Both the position numbers and the translations under genes were made by a program. A stretch of 64,000 nt of DNA from Rubrobacter taiwanensis (GTDB lineage Bacteria > Actinomycetota > Rubrobacteria > Rubrobacterales > Rubrobacteraceae): positions 1 through 64,000 of the forward strand of contig NZ_SKBU01000008.1 in NCBI RefSeq assembly GCF_004337705.1. The letters are read 5' to 3'. Shown piece by piece: positions 54,161-64,000 of the stretch. Below the pieces are notes generated by a model, which saw only the letters and a list, made by a program, of their open reading frames with translations, did not search any database and was not told the DNA's origin. Position 1 is the stretch's first letter. Each line of letters begins with the position of its first letter.

Positions 54161-54175
54161 CTCAGGGGTTCCCGG

Positions 54176-54251
<76 letters not shown>

Positions 54252-54265
54252 CCGGGAGAGTACGC

Positions 54266-54336
54266 GCGGGTGTAGCTCAATGGCAGAGCTCCAGCCTTCC
54301 AAGCTGGCGATGGGGGTTCGATTCCCCTCACCCGCT
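54266..54336 (+). tRNA. tRNA-Gly (anticodon TCC)
   Basis: A 71-nt cloverleaf: acceptor GCGGGTG/CACCCGC, anticodon stem CCAGC/GCTGG with loop CTTCCAA, T arm loop TTCGATTC. CCA is not encoded. Confidence 0.95.
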
Positions 54337-54344
54337 CTTCTCAG

Positions 54345-54417
54345 GCGCCCGTAGCTCAGGGGACAGAGCAGCGGACTTCTAATCCGCCGGTCGCAGGTTC
54401 GAATCCTGCCGGGCGCG
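54345..54417 (+). tRNA. tRNA-Arg (anticodon TCT)
   Basis: A 73-nt cloverleaf: acceptor GCGCCCG/CGGGCGC, anticodon stem GCGGA/TCCGC with loop CTTCTAA, T arm GCAGG-TTCGAAT-CCTGC. The integrase gene lies 95 bp downstream and points towards it, so this is the insertion target of the element. Confidence 0.95.
54380..54417. other. Presumed attachment site (left end of the integrative element)
   Basis: Tyrosine integrases of this kind use the 3' half of a tRNA as the core site. I found no second copy of the T arm/acceptor segment to the right up to 64000, so the other end is outside the window. The exact core length cannot be set. Confidence 0.5.
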
Positions 54418-54461
54418 CTTCGAGAAGCCTTGATTTGCAGGTGAAACGCAAACAACAGAGA

Positions 54462-54510
54462 AGCCCCCGGTTCGACGTCGGGGGCTATTTACCGCAACCG
54501 TACCGCAACC
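54462..54510 (-). terminator. Hairpin and direct repeats between tRNA-Arg and the integrase
   Basis: AGCCCCCG (54462-54469) and CGGGGGCT (54479-54486) form an 8-bp stem that may end integrase transcription. ACCGCAACC occurs twice (54491-54499, 54502-54510), which would suit integrase arm-type sites. Confidence 0.5.
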
Positions 54511-54512
54511 CG

Positions 54513-55640
54513 TTATCCCAAAGCGTCGTCCATCGCGTCCGCCAGACCGTCGCCCATGCCGGGGAGCACGTGGGAGTAGGTGTCGAGCGTGATGCCGATG
54601 TTGGCATGCCCGAGGAGTTCCTGGACGTACTTGGGGTGCTGGCCCACCTTAAGAAGTATGGTGGCGCAGGTGTGCCGGAGGTCGTGCACGCGCACGGTGC
54701 GGGGAAGTCCGGCGCGCTCCAGGATCTGCTTGAAGGAGCGGGCAGTGAGGTTCTTGGCGTTCATGGTCTTGCCGACCTGGTTGGGGAAGACGAGCCCGTG
54801 ATCCTCCCACAGCCCCGCCGCCCGCAGACGCTCCTCCAGCTGCGCTTTGCGATGGCGCCTGAGCGCCTTCATAGCCCCGGTGGTGAGCTTGATGCGGCGC
54901 CCCTTGCCGTTCTTGGGGGCTTCGAAACGGTGCCCCGTTCGCGTCTCCGAGAGCGTGCGGCGCACGGCGAGCGTGCCGGCGTCGAGGTCCACGTCCTCCC
55001 ACTTGAGCCCCAGCAACTCGCCCTCCCGCAAACCACAGTGCACGGCGAGCACGTACAGGGTCTCGAAGCGGTCGCCGCGCGCGGCGTCGAGGAAGGCGCG
55101 GGCCTGGTCGGGAGACAGGGGCCGTATCTCTTTCTTGGTGGGCCTCGGCGCCTTTATGGCCTCGGACGCGTTGCGGGGTATCAGCTCGTCCCTCACGGCC
55201 TGCTTGAGCGCCTTGTGGAGCGTGACGTGGATGTACTGGACGGTGCGGGGCGAGAGTCCGGCGCCCAGCTTCTCCCGGTAGAGGCCCCGGACATGCGCCG
55301 GAGCGAGGGTCTTCAGTTTGATCCGCCCCAGCGTGGGCTTGATGTGCACCCGGACTATGGACTCGTACCGCTCGTAGGTGCGCTGCCTCACCGTGTCCCG
55401 CACGGAGTCCGAAAGCCAGCGATCCAGGTACTCGCCGACGGTCAGCTTCCCGGCGTCGTACACGATGCCGCCATTGCGGTCCGCTATCGCCTTCGCCAGC
55501 TTCTCCGCCACCTCCCTGCGCGTCTTGCCGTACAGCGTCTTCCGCTTGCGCCCCTCGGCCGTGTACACGGTGTACTCGGCGCGCCAGGTGCCGTTCTTGC
55601 GACGGCTGATGCTGCCCTCGCCGTTGCCGCGTTTACCCAT
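54513..55640 (-). CDS. int: Tyrosine site-specific integrase
   Basis: This is a 375-residue phage/ICE-type integrase. The N-terminal arm-binding part (EGSISRRKNGTWRAEYTV) and the core-binding SAM-like domain precede the catalytic domain with Arg in AVHCGLREGELLGLKW, HxxR in RVHDLRHTCATIL and His/Tyr in LLGHANIGITLDTYSHV. ATG follows AAGGAG. Convergence on tRNA-Arg and the xis-like gene upstream show that it drives excision and integration of this element. Confidence 0.95.
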   Translation of the reverse strand: MGKRGNGEGSISRRKNGTWRAEYTVYTAEGRKRKTLYGKTRREVAEKLAKAIADRNGGIVYDAGKLTVGEYLDRWLSDSVRDTVRQRTYERYESIVRVHIKPTLGRIKLKTLAPAHVRGLYREKLGAGLSPRTVQYIHVTLHKALKQAVRDELIPRNASEAIKAPRPTKKEIRPLSPDQARAFLDAARGDRFETLYVLAVHCGLREGELLGLKWEDVDLDAGTLAVRRTLSETRTGHRFEAPKNGKGRRIKLTTGAMKALRRHRKAQLEERLRAAGLWEDHGLVFPNQVGKTMNAKNLTARSFKQILERAGLPRTVRVHDLRHTCATILLKVGQHPKYVQELLGHANIGITLDTYSHVLPGMGDGLADAMDDALG

Positions 55641-55826
55641 CTTCTCCTTCCCTTCCGGTCCCGGCGACGAGCGTCGCCACTTACAACACCTCTCAACATC
55701 CGGGTGCCTTTATCCTGCTTGGATCCACCTCCCCAACCATGAGCCTGCCGTCCGACGATCTTTGATCGCTGCGTAGACAATGTCAATGATCCACCTGTTA
55801 CGAGGTAGGGATCCTCCCCGACGGGT
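55641..55826. other. Intergenic segment between integrase and excisionase-like gene
   Basis: This 186-bp stretch has a GGCGAC-GAGC-GTCGCC hairpin (55663-55678) just ahead of the integrase start and otherwise no gene that I can support. It may hold the integrase promoter. Confidence 0.4.
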
Positions 55827-56027
55827 CTACTTCCGCCTGGCTTCCGGATAGCGTTGCTCTTCGAGCCAGCGATCGAGCTCCCTGCGGCTCACCCGGACGC
55901 TGCGCCCGATCCTCACCGATGGGATCTGCCCCGAGCCGACCAGCTCGTACGCCCGGCTGCGCGCGATCTGCAGGACCTCCGCCACCTCCGGTACCTTCAG
56001 CCACTCTCGCTCCCTGTTCACCCACAC
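55827..56027 (-). CDS. Excisionase-type helix-turn-helix protein
   Basis: This is a protein of up to 66 residues with a MerR-like winged HTH of the excisionase family (EWLKVPEVAEVLQIARSRAYELV, IPSVRIGRSVRVSRRELDRWLEE). Such proteins bend DNA at att sites to favour excision. It lies between the integrase and the divergent repressor gene. GTG at 56027 or, better spaced from GGGGAG, GTG at 56021. Confidence 0.85.
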   Translation of the reverse strand: MWVNREREWLKVPEVAEVLQIARSRAYELVGSGQIPSVRIGRSVRVSRRELDRWLEEQRYPEARRK

Positions 56028-56049
56028 TCCCCTCTTCTGTCCTGTTCCC

Positions 56050-56100
56050 TACTGTAGTACAAATACACATTTGCGGTCAAGGCCAGGATCGTCTACAGTA
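56050..56100. promoter_or_regulatory. Divergent promoter/operator between xis and the LexA-like repressor
   Basis: TACTGTAG (56050-56057) and CTACAGTA (56093-56100) form a perfect 8-bp inverted repeat 35 bp apart. Each contains a TACAGT -10 box: minus strand TTGACC (56080-56075) at 18 bp, plus strand TTGCGG (56071-56076) at 17 bp. A single repressor could control both directions. Confidence 0.6.
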
Positions 56101-56134
56101 CCCTCGAATACGCCTTCGGGGAGGGACATAAGCG

Positions 56135-56764
56135 ATGCGAGAGAACCTGGAGAAGAGGTTGGAGATCCTGGGCTACCTGGCCCGCAGGGCCGCCAGGGGC
56201 GAGGGGGCGCCGAGCGTGAAGGAGGTGGGGGAGGCCGTGGGCTTGAGGAGCACACAGACCGCCCACAAGCATCTCAAGAAGCTCGAAGAGGCCGGTTACG
56301 TCGAGCGGGAGGTCGGGAAGGCCCGGGGCCTGAGGCTCACCCCTACAGGCTGGGAGGTGGCGGGGAGGACGCCTCTATTGGGCCGGATCGCCGCCGGGCG
56401 CGGGTTCGAGGCCATCGTGGACGAGAGCACAACCTTCTCTCTGCCCGCAGAACTCCTCTACTCCCCCTCAGGCAGGGAACGCTACTCGCTGCGGGTGGTC
56501 GGGCAGAGCATGACCGGAGCCGGCATCGAGGACGGAGACCTTCTGGTCGTCGAGGAGGACGAGGACCCGCCCGACGGGGCGGTAGTGGTGGCGCTGCTTC
56601 GGGGAGGCGAGGAGGTCACCGTCAAGAGGCTCTACCGGGAGGGTAAGTACCTGCGGCTAAAGCCCGAGAACGGCGAGCACGAGGACATCGTCGTGCCCGA
56701 TGAGGAGACGATCATCCAGGGACGGGTCGTCTACGTGATACACCCGCCCAGGAGACGCCATTAG
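56135..56764 (+). CDS. LexA/CI-like self-cleaving repressor
   Basis: This is a 209-residue protein with an N-terminal winged HTH (1-65; SVKEVGEAVGLRSTQTAHKHLKKLEEAGYV) and a C-terminal S24 peptidase domain. The cleavage dipeptide Ala87-Gly88 is in LLGRIAAGRG, the nucleophile is Ser125 in VVGQSMTGAGI and the general base is Lys164 in VTVKRLY. It should repress the element until DNA damage triggers cleavage. It is probably the element's own switch rather than the host SOS LexA, judging from its place beside int/xis. Confidence 0.88.
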   Translation: MRENLEKRLEILGYLARRAARGEGAPSVKEVGEAVGLRSTQTAHKHLKKLEEAGYVEREVGKARGLRLTPTGWEVAGRTPLLGRIAAGRGFEAIVDESTTFSLPAELLYSPSGRERYSLRVVGQSMTGAGIEDGDLLVVEEDEDPPDGAVVVALLRGGEEVTVKRLYREGKYLRLKPENGEHEDIVVPDEETIIQGRVVYVIHPPRRRH

Positions 56765-56773
56765 GAGGGCGTC

Positions 56774-59044
56774 GTGAGGCCGCTGGAGCGCGTGCTGGAG
56801 GTCCTGGAGGTAGACAGGGGTCCCGACCATCGAGGCGAGTACCTGGCCTTCTGCCCGGCCCACGACGACAGGAACACCCCCAACCTGCGCGTCGAGGAGG
56901 CAGAGGACGGCCGCGTCCTGCTCCACTGCTTTGCCGGCTGCTCGCAGGACGAAGTGCTGTCGGCCCTGGAAGAGCGGGGAATTCGCAGGCGCGACCTGTT
57001 CTCCCGGAACGGCCGCGGAGTGGAGGAGGGGAGTAACCTCCCCCCGTATAGGACTGCAACGCTGCAACCCCGCTCTGTAAAGGGCGAAGATAAGCGGGAG
57101 AAGGGGTTGCGCGACCCCGCGCAACCGGGTGCGACGGTGCAACCTCCCTGCACCCTCGAAGCCTATGCCGGGGCCAAGGAACTGCCCGTGGAGTTTCTCC
57201 GGGAGCTCGGCCTCTCGACCGTCAGCTACATGGGCACGAAGGCTGTGCGGATGCCGTACCTCACGGAGGACGGCCGGGAGGGAGCCGTGCGCCTGCGGCT
57301 GGCCCTGGAGAAGTCTCCGCAGGGCGACAACCGCTTCCGGTGGCGCAAGGGCTCGAAGCCTACCCTCTACGGCCTGTGGCGCATGGAGCGCGTCCGGGAG
57401 GCCGGCTACGTCGTGCTGGTCGAGGGCGAGAGCGACTGCCACACTCTCTGGCACCATGGCATCGAGGCGCTGGGCGTCCCCGGCGCTTCCAACTGGAAGG
57501 AGGAGTGGGCGGCGCACCTCGAAGGGATCGGGAAGGTCTACGCCGTGATCGAGCCGGACGAGGGAGGCGAGATGTTGAAGGAGAGGCTCGCCGCCTCGGG
57601 CATCCGGGACCTGCTACGCTTCGTGGAGCTCGACGGAGCGAAGGACGTCAGCGAGCTTCACCTGTCCGAACCCACCCGCTTCCTGGAGAACCTACGCTCC
57701 GCCTTCGGGCGCGCGGCGCCTCTAATCGACCAGGAGAAGGAGCGGGCTGAGGCTCGTGCCCGTGAAGTCCGGGAAGCCTGCGAGGGCCTGGCCCGCGAGG
57801 GACGCATACTCGACCGGTTCGCCGCCGAGCTCGGGCGCTCCGGTGTCGCCGGCGAGAGCCGGGCGGCGAAGCTCCTCTACCTGGCCCTCACGAGCCGTCT
57901 CCTGGAGAGAATCGTGAGTGTCGCGGTCAAGGGGCCGTCCTCCGGCGGCAAGACCTACCTTGTGGAGCGTGTCCTCTCCTTCTTCCCGGAGGACGCCTAC
58001 TACGCTTTAACCGCGATGAGCGAGCGGACGCTCGCCTACTCCGAAGAGCCCATAAAGCACCGCTTCCTGGTGATCTACGAGGCCGAGGGCATGAGCGGCG
58101 ACTTCGCCACCTACCTGATGCGCTCTCTGCTCTCTGAGGGGCGCGTCCGCTACGAGACGGTCGAGAGCACCAAAGACGGCATAAGGCCCCGCCTCATAGA
58201 GCGGGAAGGCCCCACGGGCCTGATCGTCACCACCACCGCCGTCAAGCTCCACCCCGAGAACGAGACCCGCCTGCTCTCTTTGACCGTCGCCGACACCCAG
58301 GAGCAGACCAGGAACGTGCTGCGGGCTTTGGCCAGGGGTAGGATCGGCGAGCCAGACCTCAAACCCTGGCTCGCCCTCCAGGAGTGGCTGGTGACGGCCG
58401 AACGCCAGGTCGTCATCCCCTACGCCGGGGATCTCGCCGAGCTGGTCCCGCCCGTGGCCGTCAGGCTGCGCCGGGACTTCGGTGCGGTCCTGAATCTGAT
58501 CCGTGCCCATGCCGTCCTGCACCAGGCCACTCGCGAGAAGGATGCCGACGGCCGCATCGTCGCCACCCTCGACGACTACGTCGCCGTCAGGGAACTGGTG
58601 GCCGACCTGGTGAGCGAAGGCATCGAAGCAACCGTGCCCAAAGGCGTGCGCGAGGCCGTGCACGCCGTTGCACGCCTGCACGCCGGGAACTCCGAGCCGG
58701 TGACCGTGGCAGAGGTCGCCCGGGAGCTGGAGCTCGACCGCTCCGCCGCCTCCCGCAGGATCAAGACAGCCAGAGAACAGGGCTATCTCAGAGATCTCGA
58801 AGATAACCCCCGCAAGCCTTCCCGCTTGGTGCCCGGAGATCCCTTGCCCGAGGACCTGGAGATACTGCCGCCTCCGGATGCATTGAAAGCGTGCAAGCGT
58901 GCAGGCGAAAACGGGGGGATAGACACCCCCCTCCCCCCGTCGAACGGCGATGAGGAAGGCGGGGGAGGGGGTGCATACCCCTCCGAAAACGGTGCACGCC
59001 TGCACGCCCCGGACGAAGACGGGCGCGTGAGGTTCACATTATGA
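56774..59044 (+). CDS. Primase-helicase-like protein (CHC2 zinc, Toprim, P-loop ATPase)
   Basis: This is a 756-residue protein. Residues 20-60 hold a primase-type zinc motif (FCPAHDDRN, LHCFAGC). A Toprim domain lies at about 210-300 (VVLVEGESDCHTLW; VIEPDEGGE). A P-loop ATPase follows with Walker A GPSSGGKT at 387-394 and LVIYEAEGMSG as Walker B-like. A C-terminal HTH (VAEVARELELDRSAASRRIKTAREQGYL) and a Gly/Pro-rich tail end the protein. It resembles plasmid and phage replication proteins, and implies that the element can replicate on its own. GTG after TAGGAGG. Confidence 0.8.
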   Translation: MRPLERVLEVLEVDRGPDHRGEYLAFCPAHDDRNTPNLRVEEAEDGRVLLHCFAGCSQDEVLSALEERGIRRRDLFSRNGRGVEEGSNLPPYRTATLQPRSVKGEDKREKGLRDPAQPGATVQPPCTLEAYAGAKELPVEFLRELGLSTVSYMGTKAVRMPYLTEDGREGAVRLRLALEKSPQGDNRFRWRKGSKPTLYGLWRMERVREAGYVVLVEGESDCHTLWHHGIEALGVPGASNWKEEWAAHLEGIGKVYAVIEPDEGGEMLKERLAASGIRDLLRFVELDGAKDVSELHLSEPTRFLENLRSAFGRAAPLIDQEKERAEARAREVREACEGLAREGRILDRFAAELGRSGVAGESRAAKLLYLALTSRLLERIVSVAVKGPSSGGKTYLVERVLSFFPEDAYYALTAMSERTLAYSEEPIKHRFLVIYEAEGMSGDFATYLMRSLLSEGRVRYETVESTKDGIRPRLIEREGPTGLIVTTTAVKLHPENETRLLSLTVADTQEQTRNVLRALARGRIGEPDLKPWLALQEWLVTAERQVVIPYAGDLAELVPPVAVRLRRDFGAVLNLIRAHAVLHQATREKDADGRIVATLDDYVAVRELVADLVSEGIEATVPKGVREAVHAVARLHAGNSEPVTVAEVARELELDRSAASRRIKTAREQGYLRDLEDNPRKPSRLVPGDPLPEDLEILPPPDALKACKRAGENGGIDTPLPPSNGDEEGGGGGAYPSENGARLHAPDEDGRVRFTL

Positions 59045-59388
59045 GTGCTCGCGCACTGCTTGAGGAGCTGCGTACGCGCGACGTGCGTCTGGAAGCCAGC
59101 GGCCTCACGCTGCGCGTAGACGCTCCCGCCGGCGCCGCAACCGACGAGCTGCGCGCCGTCCTCCGCGAGCACAAGCGAGCCCTGATCCGGCACCTCGAAC
59201 GCGAGCGCCGCAGGCTGGAGGAGGCGGACCGCCGGGGGCTCGTGATCCGGTGGGCCAGAGAGCCCGGCTACGTCGCCCTGCACGACCCTACCACCGGCGA
59301 GTGGCACGAGGTCGCGGTGTCCGGGTGCCCGCCCTGGGTGCTGGAGGATGCGAAGGCGTACCGCCGCCGGGAAAGGAGCGAAGCATGA
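59041..59388 (+). CDS. TubC_N-like docking-domain small protein
   Basis: This is a 115-residue protein whose first 60 residues match the TubC N-terminal docking pattern (LLEELRTRDVRLEASGLTLRVDAPAGAATDELRAVLREHKRALIRHL). The second half is a short unknown domain with WVLEDAKAYRRRE. TubC_N was defined in polyketide/NRPS assembly lines but recurs beside Toprim primases in mobile elements; here it overlaps the primase stop by four bases. It probably works with that protein; its activity is unknown. Confidence 0.65.
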   Translation: MSARALLEELRTRDVRLEASGLTLRVDAPAGAATDELRAVLREHKRALIRHLERERRRLEEADRRGLVIRWAREPGYVALHDPTTGEWHEVAVSGCPPWVLEDAKAYRRRERSEA

Positions 59389-59654
59389 GCAGCTACGACG
59401 AGGTGGTCCGCCGCAGGGAGGTCAATACCCTCTACCGCAAGCTCTGCTTCCTGGGCCTCGAAGCCTATGCCGAACCTGACGCGGAGCGGCCGGCAGGCTA
59501 CAGGGTAGTGGTCGAGGGCCTGAAGTCCTTGAACCCCGACCACGCCGACCGCCTGATGCGGCTGGTGCGGGACAACGAGGCCGCGCTGGCAGAGGTACTG
59601 CCGAAGAGATGTCCCCGTCTTCGGCTCGTCCGCGGCAACGGACCGGTCCCTTGA
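59385..59654 (+). CDS. Small hypothetical protein of the element
   Basis: This is an 89-residue protein from ATG 59385 (SD GAAAGGAG), coupled to the preceding gene. It is mostly helical and charged (SYDEVVRRREVNTLYRKLCFLGLEAYAE; DHADRLMRLVRDNEAALAEVLP). I do not recognise a family. Confidence 0.6.
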   Translation: MSSYDEVVRRREVNTLYRKLCFLGLEAYAEPDAERPAGYRVVVEGLKSLNPDHADRLMRLVRDNEAALAEVLPKRCPRLRLVRGNGPVP

Positions 59655-59881
59655 GAGCACGTCTCCTATCCGTCTGCGTGTCCCGCGCCCGGGAGGGCGG
59701 TCTGAAGATAACCCTGCGGTACGCTTACGAGGGCAGACCTCCGTCCTTGAGGCAGCGCGCCGGGATGGTGAAGGCCCTGCTGGCCGAGGCCCTCGGCCGC
59801 CTGGAAAAAGGTAAGCCCATGGACGCGGGCTTCAGCGAGGACGCCGTAAGGCGCGTCCGCACCGACACGATGGAGACGTAG
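59651..59881 (+). CDS. Small hypothetical protein of the element
   Basis: This is a protein of about 76 residues from TTG 59651, overlapping the previous stop (TTGA). The C-terminal half is helical (RAGMVKALLAEALGRLEKGKPMD). The coupling in a four-gene overlapping run supports it as real. No family is recognised. Confidence 0.5.
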   Translation: MRARLLSVCVSRAREGGLKITLRYAYEGRPPSLRQRAGMVKALLAEALGRLEKGKPMDAGFSEDAVRRVRTDTMET

Positions 59882-59887
59882 CCGTCC

Positions 59888-60610
59888 GTGCCGGAAGAGG
59901 GCGTATCCGTGTGTGAGAAACCCCTATATAAGAGAGAAGATCACACGCACGGGCGGGAGAAGGCGAGGCGCTTGGACTTCGACACCTCAAAGAGCAACGG
60001 CAGGGACCGCCGACGGCCGTCCGGCGGTAACAGCTTCCCTGACTTCTCGACGGGTAGAGCCGGCCGCCCGGGTCGAGGTTTCGACACCTCCCGCCGTTAC
60101 CGTCACCAGAGCGGGATCGACGGGGGTGTCGGCGAGGACTTCCGTATACCGGCGGGCGCGAGGAAGGCCGCGCTGGTCCACCTGGCGCTCGAAGCGTGGC
60201 GCGCTGGCCTGCTCGACCCGAAGGAACTCGGTGAGGTGAGGGGCCGCGACGTGGACGAGGCAGGATTGCAACGCGCCCTCTACCGCTCCTCCATGGGCGA
60301 GATCGAGCACGTCCTCGGCCCGATAGTGAGGGGTAAGCGCATCGTCGTGGAAGGCCATCTCGCCGGCACGGGACGTACCGCCATAGAGAGGCTCGGCGCC
60401 GAGGTGGAGGAGCTAAGGCTCGAAGACGAGAGGCGCTACATAGACATGACTCCCGTCATCTTCGTTGTTGCAGCGGTCGCTATGGCCGTCCGCTACGTCT
60501 CTTTGGGCCTGGACGACCAGAGCCTCTACATCCTCGCCGGCATAGCCTTCGCCCTCATGTACGGCCTCAGGCCTTTCTTCTTCAAGATGCAGAGGCCCAG
60601 GGACGAATAG
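59888..60610 (+). CDS. Hypothetical membrane-anchored protein of the element
   Basis: This is a 240-residue protein. The N-terminal 90 residues are polar and low in complexity, with FDTS occurring twice; a helical region with ARKAALVHLALEAWRAGLLDP follows. Two C-terminal membrane helices lie at about 190-208 and 212-230 (FVVAAVAMAVRYVSLGL; YILAGIAFALMYGL). GTG start; an internal GTG is possible. It is unrecognised, but its place before the membrane nuclease suggests the two may work together. Confidence 0.5.
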   Translation: MPEEGVSVCEKPLYKREDHTHGREKARRLDFDTSKSNGRDRRRPSGGNSFPDFSTGRAGRPGRGFDTSRRYRHQSGIDGGVGEDFRIPAGARKAALVHLALEAWRAGLLDPKELGEVRGRDVDEAGLQRALYRSSMGEIEHVLGPIVRGKRIVVEGHLAGTGRTAIERLGAEVEELRLEDERRYIDMTPVIFVVAAVAMAVRYVSLGLDDQSLYILAGIAFALMYGLRPFFFKMQRPRDE

Positions 60611-60619
60611 GAGCATGCC

Positions 60620-61630
60620 GTGAAGGTCGCTACCCACATAGTCTTCGGCGAGTGCTGCCTGTTCGCCGCCTCCGCCGTCTTCGACTTCCACTACGAGATA
60701 CCCTCGGTCTTGGCGGCTGCCGTCTGCTCCGTCCTGCCCGACGCCGACTACCCCAAGAGCTGGCTCGGCCACCAGCTCGGCAGCGTCTCAGAGGATCTGT
60801 ATGGCGCCTTCGGGCACCGCTCCTTCCTACACAGCTTACTGGCTCTCGTGCTCGTCACGGCTGCTCTCGGCTCGCTTTTGTGGTGGATCACCGGCCAGCC
60901 TGCCACGATGATCGCCGTGGGGGTGGGCTATGGCTCTCACCTCTTCGCCGACATGATGACTTTAGGAGGAGTGCAGCTCTTCTGGCCCTCTCGTCTGATC
61001 GCCGTCTTCCCTGGTCGCGACGAGTACCGCGTCGTCAGCGGCGGTAACTCCGAGCGCGTGTTTGTCGCCGTTGCTCTCATCTTTGCGCTGCTCTTCTACC
61101 CTGTCTCGCGAGTAGGCTTCGACGGCCTGATCTACCGCATGGGTGGCTCCGACCAGCTCTACGGCGAGGTGACCAGAGTGACCGACGGCGACACCATAGA
61201 GGTAGAGACCCAGGGCCGCACTACTCCCGTGCGTCTCATAGGCGTGGACACCCCGGAGACCGTGGCGCCTGACCAGCCTATAGGTTGCTTTGGACCGCAG
61301 GCATCTGACTACACGAAGCAGGTCCTCTACGAGCGCCAGATCAACGAAGAAGGTGAGGTCGTGCGCGAAGGCCGTCTCGTGAGGCTGGAGATCCCGCGCA
61401 TAGGAGATTCCGAGGACGCCTACGGCCGTACTCTTGCCTACGTCTACATCGATGCGAACGATGACGGCTCCTACGAGCGCCTCTTCAACGAAGACCTTAT
61501 CGAACTCGGGCTCGCCCGCACCACGACTTTCGCCCACACCTACCGCCGCGAGTTCGAGCGAGCAAGGGAAGAGGCCGAGGAGAGGGGCGCGGGATTGTGG
61601 AGCGCCTGTCCCGAAGTGGACACTCCCTGA
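60620..61630 (+). CDS. DUF457/YdjM-like membrane hydrolase fused to a thermonuclease
   Basis: This is a 336-residue two-domain protein. Residues 1-170 are a DUF457 (YdjM) membrane metal-hydrolase domain with His6, Asp41/Asp43 in PDADYP, His66/His71 in GHRSFLHS and His107/Asp111 in GYGSHLFADM; four hydrophobic helices end at about 165. Residues 180-332 are a staphylococcal-nuclease domain with all key residues kept: Asp191, Arg205, Asp210, Glu213 and Arg270. The nuclease would sit next to the membrane. SD TAGGAG precedes GTG 60620. Confidence 0.85.
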   Translation: MKVATHIVFGECCLFAASAVFDFHYEIPSVLAAAVCSVLPDADYPKSWLGHQLGSVSEDLYGAFGHRSFLHSLLALVLVTAALGSLLWWITGQPATMIAVGVGYGSHLFADMMTLGGVQLFWPSRLIAVFPGRDEYRVVSGGNSERVFVAVALIFALLFYPVSRVGFDGLIYRMGGSDQLYGEVTRVTDGDTIEVETQGRTTPVRLIGVDTPETVAPDQPIGCFGPQASDYTKQVLYERQINEEGEVVREGRLVRLEIPRIGDSEDAYGRTLAYVYIDANDDGSYERLFNEDLIELGLARTTTFAHTYRREFERAREEAEERGAGLWSACPEVDTP

Positions 61631-62208
61631 CGGGCTAACGCCGTTGCGAGGAGGCTTCACAGGCGGGAGCCATTAGGCGACACCAGACTCCCGTGGCGGG
61701 TCTGCGCACCCACCCCGGGCTGCGCTCTCCCGGCCGCGGAAGGGTGGAAGGCGCAACTCCGCGTGACGGTCCGCAGGCCGCCCCCGAGGGTCGGCCCCCG
61801 GCCCTGCGCCTCTCGTCCGTAGCGGGCGAGACTCGGTATGGCGGCCAGCTTGCGCTCGCCGCTACGCAGGATCATCCTCGCCGGCACGGTCCGCCGTCGG
61901 CTAAAGCCGACCCCGGCCCTCCACCAATGATCAGCTATAGCGGAACGCGGCAAGGCGGAGAGCCGTCCTGACGGCCGGCACCCCGCCCCAGACCACCTTG
62001 AGGATGCAGAGCGAGGGTTCCCACCAACTTCGAGACCAGCGTCTGGAGCCTGATGGAGACGATGTGTTGCCAGCGCCCCAGAAGGCTACACCGGCAGGGC
62101 GGGGACGGCTTCGCCGCCCTTTCAGGGTGTCGAGGCTCTCCATACCGGCCGTGCCCTGGCCTTGACATCCCCGTCCCCCGGCCCCTTACGCCCCCAGGCA
62201 GGCAACAC
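61631..62208. other. Non-coding 578-bp region with strong hairpins
   Basis: No credible gene. CGTAGCGGGCGAG (61818-61830) pairs with CTCGCCGCTACG (61855-61866) with one bulge; GTCGGC-TAAA-GCCGAC (61896-61911) is a perfect hairpin with an AAA-type loop of the sort found at IS200/IS605 ends; a further CGGC-TTC-GCCG hairpin lies near 62110. It could be a decayed insertion sequence, a structured RNA or a transfer origin. Confidence 0.5.
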
Positions 62209-62616
62209 ATGATTTCCTCCACCGCACACCCGTTCCCCCTATCCGGCGTCGTGGCCTTCGCGGGCTCCCGGCACGGCTCCCCGTTCCCGGTGGCGCCGCT
62301 TGTCTCTGCCGTCCTTGCCGCAGGTGGATCGGTGCGCGTGGGCTGCGCCCCCGGCGTTGACGCTGTCGTCCGCTCCTGTTGCCTCTTGGCCGTGGTGGTG
62401 CGCGCCTCGTCGTTTCCCGGCCCGCCGCGTGCCCGGCTCGCTGCCCGTACCCGGGTGGTCGTTGCCGGTGCCTCGGCTCTGTGCGTCTTTCCACCCGCCG
62501 GCGGCGCGCTCGGTCCCGGCTCCTCGCTGACGACGAGGGCGATCCTTGACTTTCCCCTGAGGAGAGCTACACTGGTCGTTATTAATCAAGTAAATTTGAT
62601 AAAAAGGTGGTTCGGC
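62209..62616 (+). pseudogene. SLOG/DprA-like fragment, 3' end lost
   Basis: From ATG 62209 the frame encodes VVAFAGSRHGSPFPVAPLV, VRVGCAPGVDAVVRSCC and GALGPGSSLTTRAIL, the pattern of small SLOG-fold proteins common in mobile elements. The usual final segment after the GSxLT stretch is missing, and the frame runs without a stop through the arsR promoter and operator into arsR. I read this as a gene cut off near 62545 by insertion of the metal-resistance module. Confidence 0.55.
62546..62600 (+). promoter_or_regulatory. arsR promoter and ArsR/SmtB operator
   Basis: -35 TTGACT (62546-62551), 16 bp, -10 TACACT (62568-62573). Eleven bases later is ATCAA-GTAAAT-TTGAT (62585-62600), the inverted-repeat operator form used by ArsR/SmtB metal sensors. 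Confidence 0.75.
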
Positions 62617-62976
62617 TTGGACGAGTGCTACAGCGAGATACCCAGGGTGCGGCGGGGGGACCTGCAACTGCTCCCCGAGGGGGAGGCGTCGGCCCTGGCG
62701 GCCTACGGGAAGGCTCTCGGAGACCCGATCCGGCTGCAGATGGTCCGCCTTCTGGAGCAGCGAGAGGACCTCTGCACCTGCGAGTTCGAGGAGCTCCTGG
62801 GTCTCGGCCAATCGAAGGTCTCCTACCACCTGAAGGTCCTGCTCAAAGCGGGGGTCGTGGAGCGCGAGTTGCACGGCACCTGGAGCCACTACAGCCTGCG
62901 CGACCCGAGGCTCCTGGAGCGGCTCGGGTTGCTCTTCTCGGCGACGCACGAACGTAACGAGGCGTTGACCGCATAA
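62617..62976 (+). CDS. ArsR/SmtB-family metal-responsive repressor
   Basis: This is a protein of about 119 residues from TTG 62617, seven bases after AAGGTGG. The winged HTH is LGQSKVSYHLKVLLKAGVVERE. Metal-binding candidates are Cys53 and Cys55 in LCTCEF (the alpha-3 CxC site), Cys4 and the C-terminal His101. Derepression by Cd, Pb or Zn (or As, as in true ArsR) is likely because a CadA/ZntA-type ATPase follows with the same operator. Autoregulated. Confidence 0.88.
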   Translation: MDECYSEIPRVRRGDLQLLPEGEASALAAYGKALGDPIRLQMVRLLEQREDLCTCEFEELLGLGQSKVSYHLKVLLKAGVVERELHGTWSHYSLRDPRLLERLGLLFSATHERNEALTA

Positions 62977-63006
62977 GTTCATAAGGCGCGCGTTCGGCGG
63001 TCCGTT

Positions 63007-63034
63007 TACACTCATTTAATCAAATTTCCTTGAT
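63007..63034 (+). promoter_or_regulatory. Second ArsR/SmtB operator before the metal ATPase
   Basis: -10 TACACT (63007-63012) is followed by ATCAA-ATTTCC-TTGAT (63019-63034), the same half-sites and spacing as the arsR operator. It ends just before the AAAGGAG ribosome binding site. Confidence 0.75.
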
Positions 63035-63049
63035 CATAAAGGAGACGGT

Positions 63050-64000
63050 TTGAAAGAGCGGTTCGAAGAGCGGGAGGTAGGGCCGCCCGTGGAGGATGGA
63101 AACGGCGGCGGTGACGGACGGGTGGCGGTCTACGAGGTCGAGGGCGCTGGTTGCCTGGACTGCGCCGGGGAGGTCGAGGAGGCCATAGCGGATCTTCCGG
63201 GTGTAGAGGAGGACGACTTCAACCCGGTGGCCGGTAGGCTGACGGTGATCGGCGAGGCCGACACGGAGGCCATCCGGAGGATCACGAAGAGCGAAGGGTG
63301 GGCGGTCAGGCCGCAGGGCTCCCGGAGCCCGAACGGTTCTGTGGCTGCGGCCGCAGGGGCGCCACCGGCCGGGGATACGCCGGCAAGAGAGGAGCCCAGG
63401 CCCTGGTGGAGGCAGACCCGGCAGGTGCTTCTGGCTCTCTCGGCGTCGCTGCTCATGTTGGGCCTCGTCTTCGAGTGGACCGGCCTGGCCGACAGGCTCG
63501 GAGGTGGGGAGCTCCTGGCACGAATTCTGTTCGGCGCGTCCATCCTCGTCGGTATCTACGCGCCCGCGCGCAGCGCCTACGCTTCCCTCAAGCGCAAGAG
63601 GATCACGATCAACACGCTTCTGGTCGTGGGCAGCGCGGGGGCGCTGTGGCTGGGGCTGTGGGAAGAGGCGGCGAGCCTGGTGGTCATCTTCTCGCTCGGG
63701 GAGGTGATGGAGGTCTACGCCACCGACCGCGCCCGGCGCAACCTCAAGGCACTCATGGACCTGGCACCGCCTTCGGCACTCGTGGTGCGCCAGGGCGGAA
63801 TGGAGGAGACCGTGCCCGTGGAGGCGGTGCGTACCGGAGACCTGATCCGGATCAAGCCCGGGACCAGGATCCCCCTGGACGGCGAGGTGGTCGAGGGCGG
63901 CTCCGCGGTGGACGAGGCGCCCATCACCGGCGAGTCCATGCCGGCGGACAAGGGGAGAGGCGACGAGGTCTTCGCCGGGACGATGAACCTGAATGGCGTC
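63050..64000 (+). CDS. CadA/ZntA-like heavy-metal P-type ATPase, cut by the window end
   Basis: 317 codons are visible from TTG 63050 (SD AAAGGAG). An N-terminal HMA domain carries Cys35 and Cys38 (GAGCLDCAGEVEEAI). A Pro/Ala-rich linker, paired membrane helices and the actuator domain with PITGESMPADKG follow. EVMEVYATDRARRNLKALMDLAP resembles the Zn/Cd/Pb-exporting P1B-2 group. The CPx and DKTGT motifs lie beyond 64000. It exports toxic divalent metal from the cytoplasm under control of the adjacent ArsR protein. Confidence 0.88.
   Translation, partial: MKERFEEREVGPPVEDGNGGGDGRVAVYEVEGAGCLDCAGEVEEAIADLPGVEEDDFNPVAGRLTVIGEADTEAIRRITKSEGWAVRPQGSRSPNGSVAAAAGAPPAGDTPAREEPRPWWRQTRQVLLALSASLLMLGLVFEWTGLADRLGGGELLARILFGASILVGIYAPARSAYASLKRKRITINTLLVVGSAGALWLGLWEEAASLVVIFSLGEVMEVYATDRARRNLKALMDLAPPSALVVRQGGMEETVPVEAVRTGDLIRIKPGTRIPLDGEVVEGGSAVDEAPITGESMPADKGRGDEVFAGTMNLNGV

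Follow-up and report, generated by a model that had tools for sequence, protein, structure and literature searches.

A fusion of a YdjM membrane domain to a staphylococcal nuclease in Rubrobacter mobile elements, and its relatives on bacterial and archaeal plasmids

The gene at positions 60620-61630 (forward strand) of the window, by which we mean the whole stretch of 64,000 nucleotides of Rubrobacter taiwanensis DNA analyzed here, raises the question of what a membrane metal-hydrolase domain and a nuclease do together in one reading frame of a mobile element. The preliminary description had proposed that a YdjM-like membrane domain is joined to a staphylococcal nuclease (SNase) domain, with the metal residues of the former (His6, Asp41/43, His66/71, and His107) and the catalytic residues of the latter in place, and both proposals are borne out. 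From a GTG start, the stop-free frame encodes 336 amino acids, full-length homologues exist, and both Pfam domains score above their cut-offs: YdjM (DUF457, PF04307) over residues 1-162 (60620-61105; 113.4 bits against a curated cut-off of 29, E=1.1e-32) and SNase (PF00565) over residues 204-328 (67 bits against a cut-off of 21, E=3.1e-18), the nuclease domain as a whole, defined by Pfam, residue alignment, an AlphaFold2 model, and Foldseek, covering residues 184-328 (61169-61603). The last transmembrane helix, recognized by hydropathy, and a conserved LFYPVS linker (residues 147-165, 61058-61114) stand between them, and a similar linker is present in plasmid YdjMs. Throughout the 12 full-length fusions, His6, Asp41, Asp43, His66, His71, His107, and Asp111 of the YdjM half are invariant, as are Asp189, Asp191, Arg205, Asp210, Thr211, Glu213, and Arg270 of the SNase half, which correspond in an alignment with the PDB structure to D19, D21, R35, D40, T41, E43, and R87 of Staphylococcus aureus nuclease. 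The catalytic set R35/E43/R87 is represented by R205, E213, and R270 and the calcium site D21/D40/T41 by D191, D210, and T211; these SNase residues are kept almost everywhere across 43 relatives. An AlphaFold2 model from a 43-row alignment of relatives, from which two plasmid-database protein rows were left out and which replaced an initial 12-row model of pLDDT 55, gave pLDDT values mostly of 75-94 for the SNase half, and Foldseek matched this half to staphylococcal nuclease with a TM score of 0.90 on the target (E about 1e-11). The YdjM half was modeled less well than the SNase half, and a fold search of the PDB with it returned no match.

Fusion copies, full-length or partial, were found in 16 of 39 Rubrobacteraceae genomes, with up to three full-length copies per genome. 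One, in an independent genome of another genus, is identical, and other full-length copies are 67-92% identical; therefore, chance is excluded, as are the two objections that the preliminary description had named, a sequencing error that removed a stop codon and a fusion unique to one genome. Within the collections covered, the suggested search for the two-domain architecture and its neighbors placed the fusion in Rubrobacteraceae only, accompanied by a partner gene considered below. The 396 Actinomycetota genomes contained none outside this family, plasmid and phage databases yielded no record spanning 80% of the query, and no relative was present among viral contigs. A scan of 84,980 species, using two peptide patterns that are both Rubrobacter-like, so that distant fusions may escape it, matched only Rubrobacter (R. 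marinus included), Rubrobacteraceae, or unnamed actinobacterial records, one of which carries an identical fusion protein. Purifying selection acts on both halves, with median pairwise dN/dS values of 0.16 (YdjM) and 0.15 (SNase), which indicates that both are in use. The fusion is thus a genuine and conserved protein of Rubrobacter mobile elements, predicted to lie in the membrane. A few copies, at four loci, contain stops or frameshifts, reflecting either decay or metagenome assembly errors, and the R. marinus copy (locus L044, position 9165) apparently starts at CTG, the others starting at GTG or ATG. Nearly every member of the Rubrobacteraceae also has one short standalone YdjM. These chromosomal proteins form one clade (support 100/100) and the fusion YdjMs another (100/99), the latter on the side of the plasmid YdjMs with weak support (82/78), and a recent origin of the fusion YdjM as a copy of the host chromosomal gene is not supported.

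The element itself is delimited by attL (54375-54419, forward strand), located in the 3' half of tRNA-Arg(TCT) (54345-54418), and by a 45-bp copy with 97.8% identity, attR, which lies beyond the window at contig positions 81974-82018, making the element about 27.6 kb long. Next to attL are genes for a tyrosine integrase (54513-55640, reverse strand; PF00589, E=8e-28) and an excisionase-like HTH_17 protein (55827-56027, reverse strand; PF12728, E=4e-16). The earlier prediction of a nuclease that is anchored in the membrane, carried by a mobile element, and intact in every catalytic residue is supported. On the forward strand, the fusion is the final gene of a tightly packed operon, with overlaps or gaps of at most 10 bp, in the order lexA (56135-56764), a primase/helicase-like replication gene (56774-59044; PHROG primase, E=9e-18), a gene for a TubC_N docking-domain protein (59041-59388; PF18563, E=2e-12), g134 (59385-59654, its ATG at 59385 lying inside a mechanically called ORF of 59250-59654), g90 (59609-59881), the partner gene g240 (59888-60610), and the fusion. 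In other elements the primase is exchanged for another protein plus a DUF3987 protein, with TubC_N, g134, g240, and the fusion retained, and g90 is found in some elements. The TubC_N protein, of a type familiar from polyketide and peptide synthases, is a fixed neighbor of the replication gene in these elements.

From the tRNAs onward, 11 kb (window 54174-64000, compared with locus L036) are 99.5% identical to a genome placed in another genus, whereas the chromosome to the left of the element is just 72-77% identical to that genome, which points to a very recent transfer into the same tRNA-Arg. An empty-site comparison through the right-hand flank gene found that gene matched in two relatives only. 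The slot after the fusion (61631-64000 in the window, and at five further loci) is a cargo hot spot, holding metal resistance genes, DUF6079, an Eco57I-type methylase, an NB-ARC/TPR protein, Fic, or a DNA methylase, and PADLOC returned generic SNase/HTH matches only. With a tyrosine integrase and an excisionase at a tRNA 3' end and a replication gene, the element resembles the actinomycete integrative and conjugative elements (AICEs), of which a survey recorded none in Rubrobacteridae (PMC3218068), but it differs from them in having no FtsK/TraB transfer gene: no FtsK/TraB was found at the elements, each genome containing one FtsK locus above cut-off, of the chromosomal type. AICE membership was therefore rejected, the FtsK/SpoIIIE-type Tra being absent. 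Relaxase-type mobilization was likewise rejected: of six genomes searched for the relaxase family PF03432, five had no match, and the match in the other was not near the element.

The element-encoded LexA-like repressor (TIGR00498, 151.5 bits against a cut-off of 111) retains its Ala-Gly cleavage site, Ser, and Lys in all eight elements aligned. Between the divergent xis and lexA genes lies a predicted operator, CAAATACACATTTG (56060-56073), of the form CAAAY-N4-RTTTG; this is the only exact match in the whole genome, and a similar palindrome precedes lexA in 8/8 elements examined. The genome G008 has four matches, three of them at its three elements; the fourth, in a region without element genes, was taken as chance. 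The preliminary description had supposed control by the element's own repressor, and because the fusion shares an operon with it, the operator is unique, and the self-cleavage residues are intact, predicted DNA-damage control of the fusion operon by the element LexA is well supported in sequence. The element copies are also the only TIGR00498 matches in the R. taiwanensis genome, in G008 (three), and in genome G019 (one), and no match was found in 8 of the 39 Rubrobacteraceae genomes. Some Rubrobacter species thus appear to obtain their only LexA from a mobile element; for R. radiotolerans, the genome paper reported that the type strain encodes LexA in mobile regions and that strain RSPS-4 has none (PMC4148983).

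Hydropathy and the AlphaFold2 model give the YdjM half about five hydrophobic helices, with the metal residues at alternating helix ends on the same side, and the loops on that side, within residues 113-146, are rich in arginine. By the positive-inside rule, the side of the metal site would therefore be cytoplasmic, and with an odd number of helices the C-terminal SNase would be outside. Of 28 standalone relatives, 16 have cysteines at both position 223 and position 330 and 12 have neither (p=3e-8), a perfect covariation of the kind expected from a disulfide, which argues for an extracytoplasmic SNase. Many of the standalone relatives have lipobox-like, signal-peptide-like, or transmembrane N-termini, and together with the covarying cysteines these exported proteins would place the nuclease outside the cell. 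The SNase half thus probably faces outward, most of the evidence on its topology being indirect.

The gene directly upstream, g240, was present together with the fusion in all 12 genomes that carry it in a 60-genome sample. It has no Pfam family or domain, so no AAA ATPase domain is recognized in it. Its C-terminus matches, at 39-47% identity and E-values down to 3e-12 in BLAST, the C-termini of AAA ATPases encoded next to YdjM on plasmids. An HMM of this two-transmembrane domain, built from six plasmid ATPases only, recovered g240 of the Rubrobacter elements with E-values of about 1e-17 to 1e-21 (about 1e-20 for the domain at 60368-60601 here). It also matched the gene beside YdjM on plasmids of Nitrosococcus, Allochromatium, Methylobacter, Nostoc, Synechocystis, Gloeocapsa, Moorena, Thermus, Desulfocapsa, a fusobacterium, and the archaeon Thermococcus barophilus, and in every case the domain forms the very end of the protein. 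Apart from weaker matches to the ends of integrase-annotated proteins on Bacteroidota plasmids, no further match was obtained among 3,863 open frames. In the stretches read around YdjM of Microcystis, pSYSM, and Shewanella plasmids, no two-helix gene was found. The fusion turns out to be a variant of a two-gene membrane module on bacterial and archaeal plasmids that is apparently undescribed, no description of the partner domain or of the module being found in a limited search of the open literature. The cassette of an ATPase with a C-terminal two-helix domain, followed by a YdjM with an extra C-terminal domain, was seen at 14 loci spanning several bacterial phyla and the archaeal plasmid.

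On plasmids, the nuclease appears as a neighbor rather than as a fused domain. A separate SNase gene lies just beyond YdjM in 9 of 10 module-bearing Thermus plasmids, although these plasmids are related and the nine are not independent cases, and Synechococcus UTEX 3055 encodes a signal-peptide-bearing SNase about 2 kb before the module. SNases with signal peptides are thus found close to YdjM in both Thermus and Synechococcus plasmids, which speaks for an outward-facing nuclease. In two Thermus plasmids (L169 7902-8516 and L172 6662-7348), the thermonuclease gene directly follows YdjM in convergent orientation, and the pL4C thermonuclease carries an Excalibur calcium-binding domain. A gene neighborhood seen in one phylum combined with a fusion seen in a different one is classical evidence for joint action, so YdjM and SNase probably cooperate and would have been fused in Rubrobacter. 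The cassettes of Thermus plasmids (pL4C, pTCCB09), composed of AAA-2TM/TolC/YdjM/thermonuclease, share with the Rubrobacter pair a homologous two-helix partner domain, YdjM, and SNase, but differ in that the genes are separate, the AAA domain is present, and YdjM has a C-terminal region of its own. Beyond the SNase genes, YdjM is immediately followed by a gene for a TrwB/HerA-like ATPase at five loci on cyanobacterial plasmids, the Thermus cassettes contain a TolC/OEP-family gene, and MOB typing classed the plasmids with a two-helix ATPase as non-mobilizable in 22/22 and 43/45 records.

Our leading reading, which we hold tentatively, is that mobile elements encode a membrane module in which the fusion serves as the anchored subunit that cuts DNA, faces outward, and destroys incoming DNA. 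The approximately five YdjM helices would anchor the protein, with its N-terminus and metal site in the cytoplasm and a Ca2+-type thermonuclease domain, presumably active, on the outer side of the membrane; g240, probably in complex with YdjM, would be held in that membrane by the two helices at its C-terminus. The fusion would be made together with the replication genes of the element under the control of its LexA, at a basal level and more strongly after DNA damage, and the surface nuclease would cut DNA that arrives from outside, by transformation or with competing elements, thereby guarding the element against being replaced or out-competed. An outward DNase is favored because the element-borne DNases YokF, Dns, and IdeA lower transformation 10- to 1000-fold (PMC4774983) and because ComEC is encoded in 8/8 hosts tested. 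However, ComEC occurs in poorly transformable species too, our literature search found no account of transformation in Rubrobacter, a nuclease that serves exclusion has no need to be linked to an excision and replication operon, and the DNA-pump-like and outer-membrane-channel neighbors of the plasmid modules fit transfer instead.

These pump-like and channel-like neighbors make a DNA-transfer machine the chief rival and a serious one, even if we regard it as rather unlikely. Here, the partner, YdjM, and the nuclease would belong to an uncharacterized machine by which elements that lack classical conjugation pass DNA through the envelope; the nuclease would trim or linearize DNA during export or uptake, much as NucA and EndA do in competence. 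The non-mobilizable typing, the TrwB/HerA-like ATPase, the TolC-family and SNase genes of the plasmids, and the spread of Rubrobacter elements across genera without a recognized relaxase or TraB are all in its favor, and one account of transjugation in Thermus indicates that unconventional DNA donation exists (PMC5365140). Yet no DNA-pump gene was recognized in the Rubrobacter element examined, its partner protein lacks the AAA domain, and the MOB-suite class "non-mobilizable" includes many plasmids without any transfer at all.

Lysis, nutrition, and abortive defense are less likely still. A housekeeping or nutritional surface DNase, with YdjM as a mere anchor, would suit the exported standalone SNases common in the phylum but sits poorly with the invariant YdjM metal residues, the accompanying partner, and the location of the gene in the mobile core, apart from the variable cargo, and we consider it improbable. 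It is more improbable again that an SOS response releases the element, with excision and replication switched on, YdjM harming the membrane, SNase degrading DNA, and the host lysing: predicted co-expression with LexA, xis, and primase and the profile relationship of YdjM to zinc phospholipase C toxins (PMC8557891) would agree with this, but an outward-facing nuclease would spare its producer, a single genome can tolerate as many as three intact copies, and no holin or lysin was recognized. To the same low degree we credit a defense effector in which invasion is sensed by a partner with a STAND-like ATPase, and membrane or DNA is attacked by YdjM and the domain at its C-terminus; partner ATPases do match AAA_16, nSTAND1, and NB-ARC, and defense-type genes often follow the fusion, but the Rubrobacter partner has no ATPase domain and PADLOC gave nothing beyond a generic SNase match.

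Each domain, and DNases on mobile elements, are already known; what is new is the variant in which the two domains are fused in a conserved core gene controlled, as predicted, by the LexA of the element, and the novelty of the partner domain and the two-gene module is provisional. E. coli ydjM is LexA-regulated, and its product has a membrane metal-hydrolase domain of the same family (PF04307) but no SNase; in the tree, the fusion YdjMs group separately from the chromosomal YdjM of the host. As with YokF of SPbeta, itself an SNase homologue, Dns of CJIE1, and IdeA of a Vibrio cholerae ICE (PMC4774983), a DNase gene is carried on an integrated element, but those nucleases are not described as YdjM fusions; here, the polytopic YdjM domain, the two-helix partner, and the element LexA operon are added. 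A YdjM with a C-terminal beta-sandwich has been proposed as a phospholipase toxin (PMC8557891); the fusion likewise has a YdjM followed by a C-terminal domain, but this domain is an SNase, the protein is predicted to span the membrane, and it bears no sign of a toxin role.

More broadly, and with somewhat less confidence than we place in the destruction of incoming DNA, the two-helix domain and YdjM may constitute a widespread, undescribed machine in the membrane that bacterial and archaeal plasmids and integrative elements use to handle DNA at the surface of the cell. A nuclease is associated with it twice in distant lineages, as a neighboring gene in Thermus and as a fusion in Rubrobacter, and the machine would serve elements that have no recognized transfer genes, whether for moving DNA or for keeping it out. 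Gene fusion and gene neighborhood together tie YdjM/DUF457, a family of unknown function, to the DNA handling of mobile elements, and the partner domain, absent from Pfam, marks the module on many plasmids typed as non-mobilizable. Since the module occurs in tractable hosts (Thermus thermophilus, Synechocystis 6803, and Synechococcus elongatus), its plasmid role at the membrane is directly testable. On three Bacteroidota plasmids (L162 4957-6474, L164 1664-3169, and L168 1564-3138), the two-helix domain ends an integrase-annotated protein adjoining YdjM, the HMM matches being weak in two of the three; the one protein scanned combines a tyrosine recombinase with an AAA domain, which suggests a membrane-anchored recombinase.
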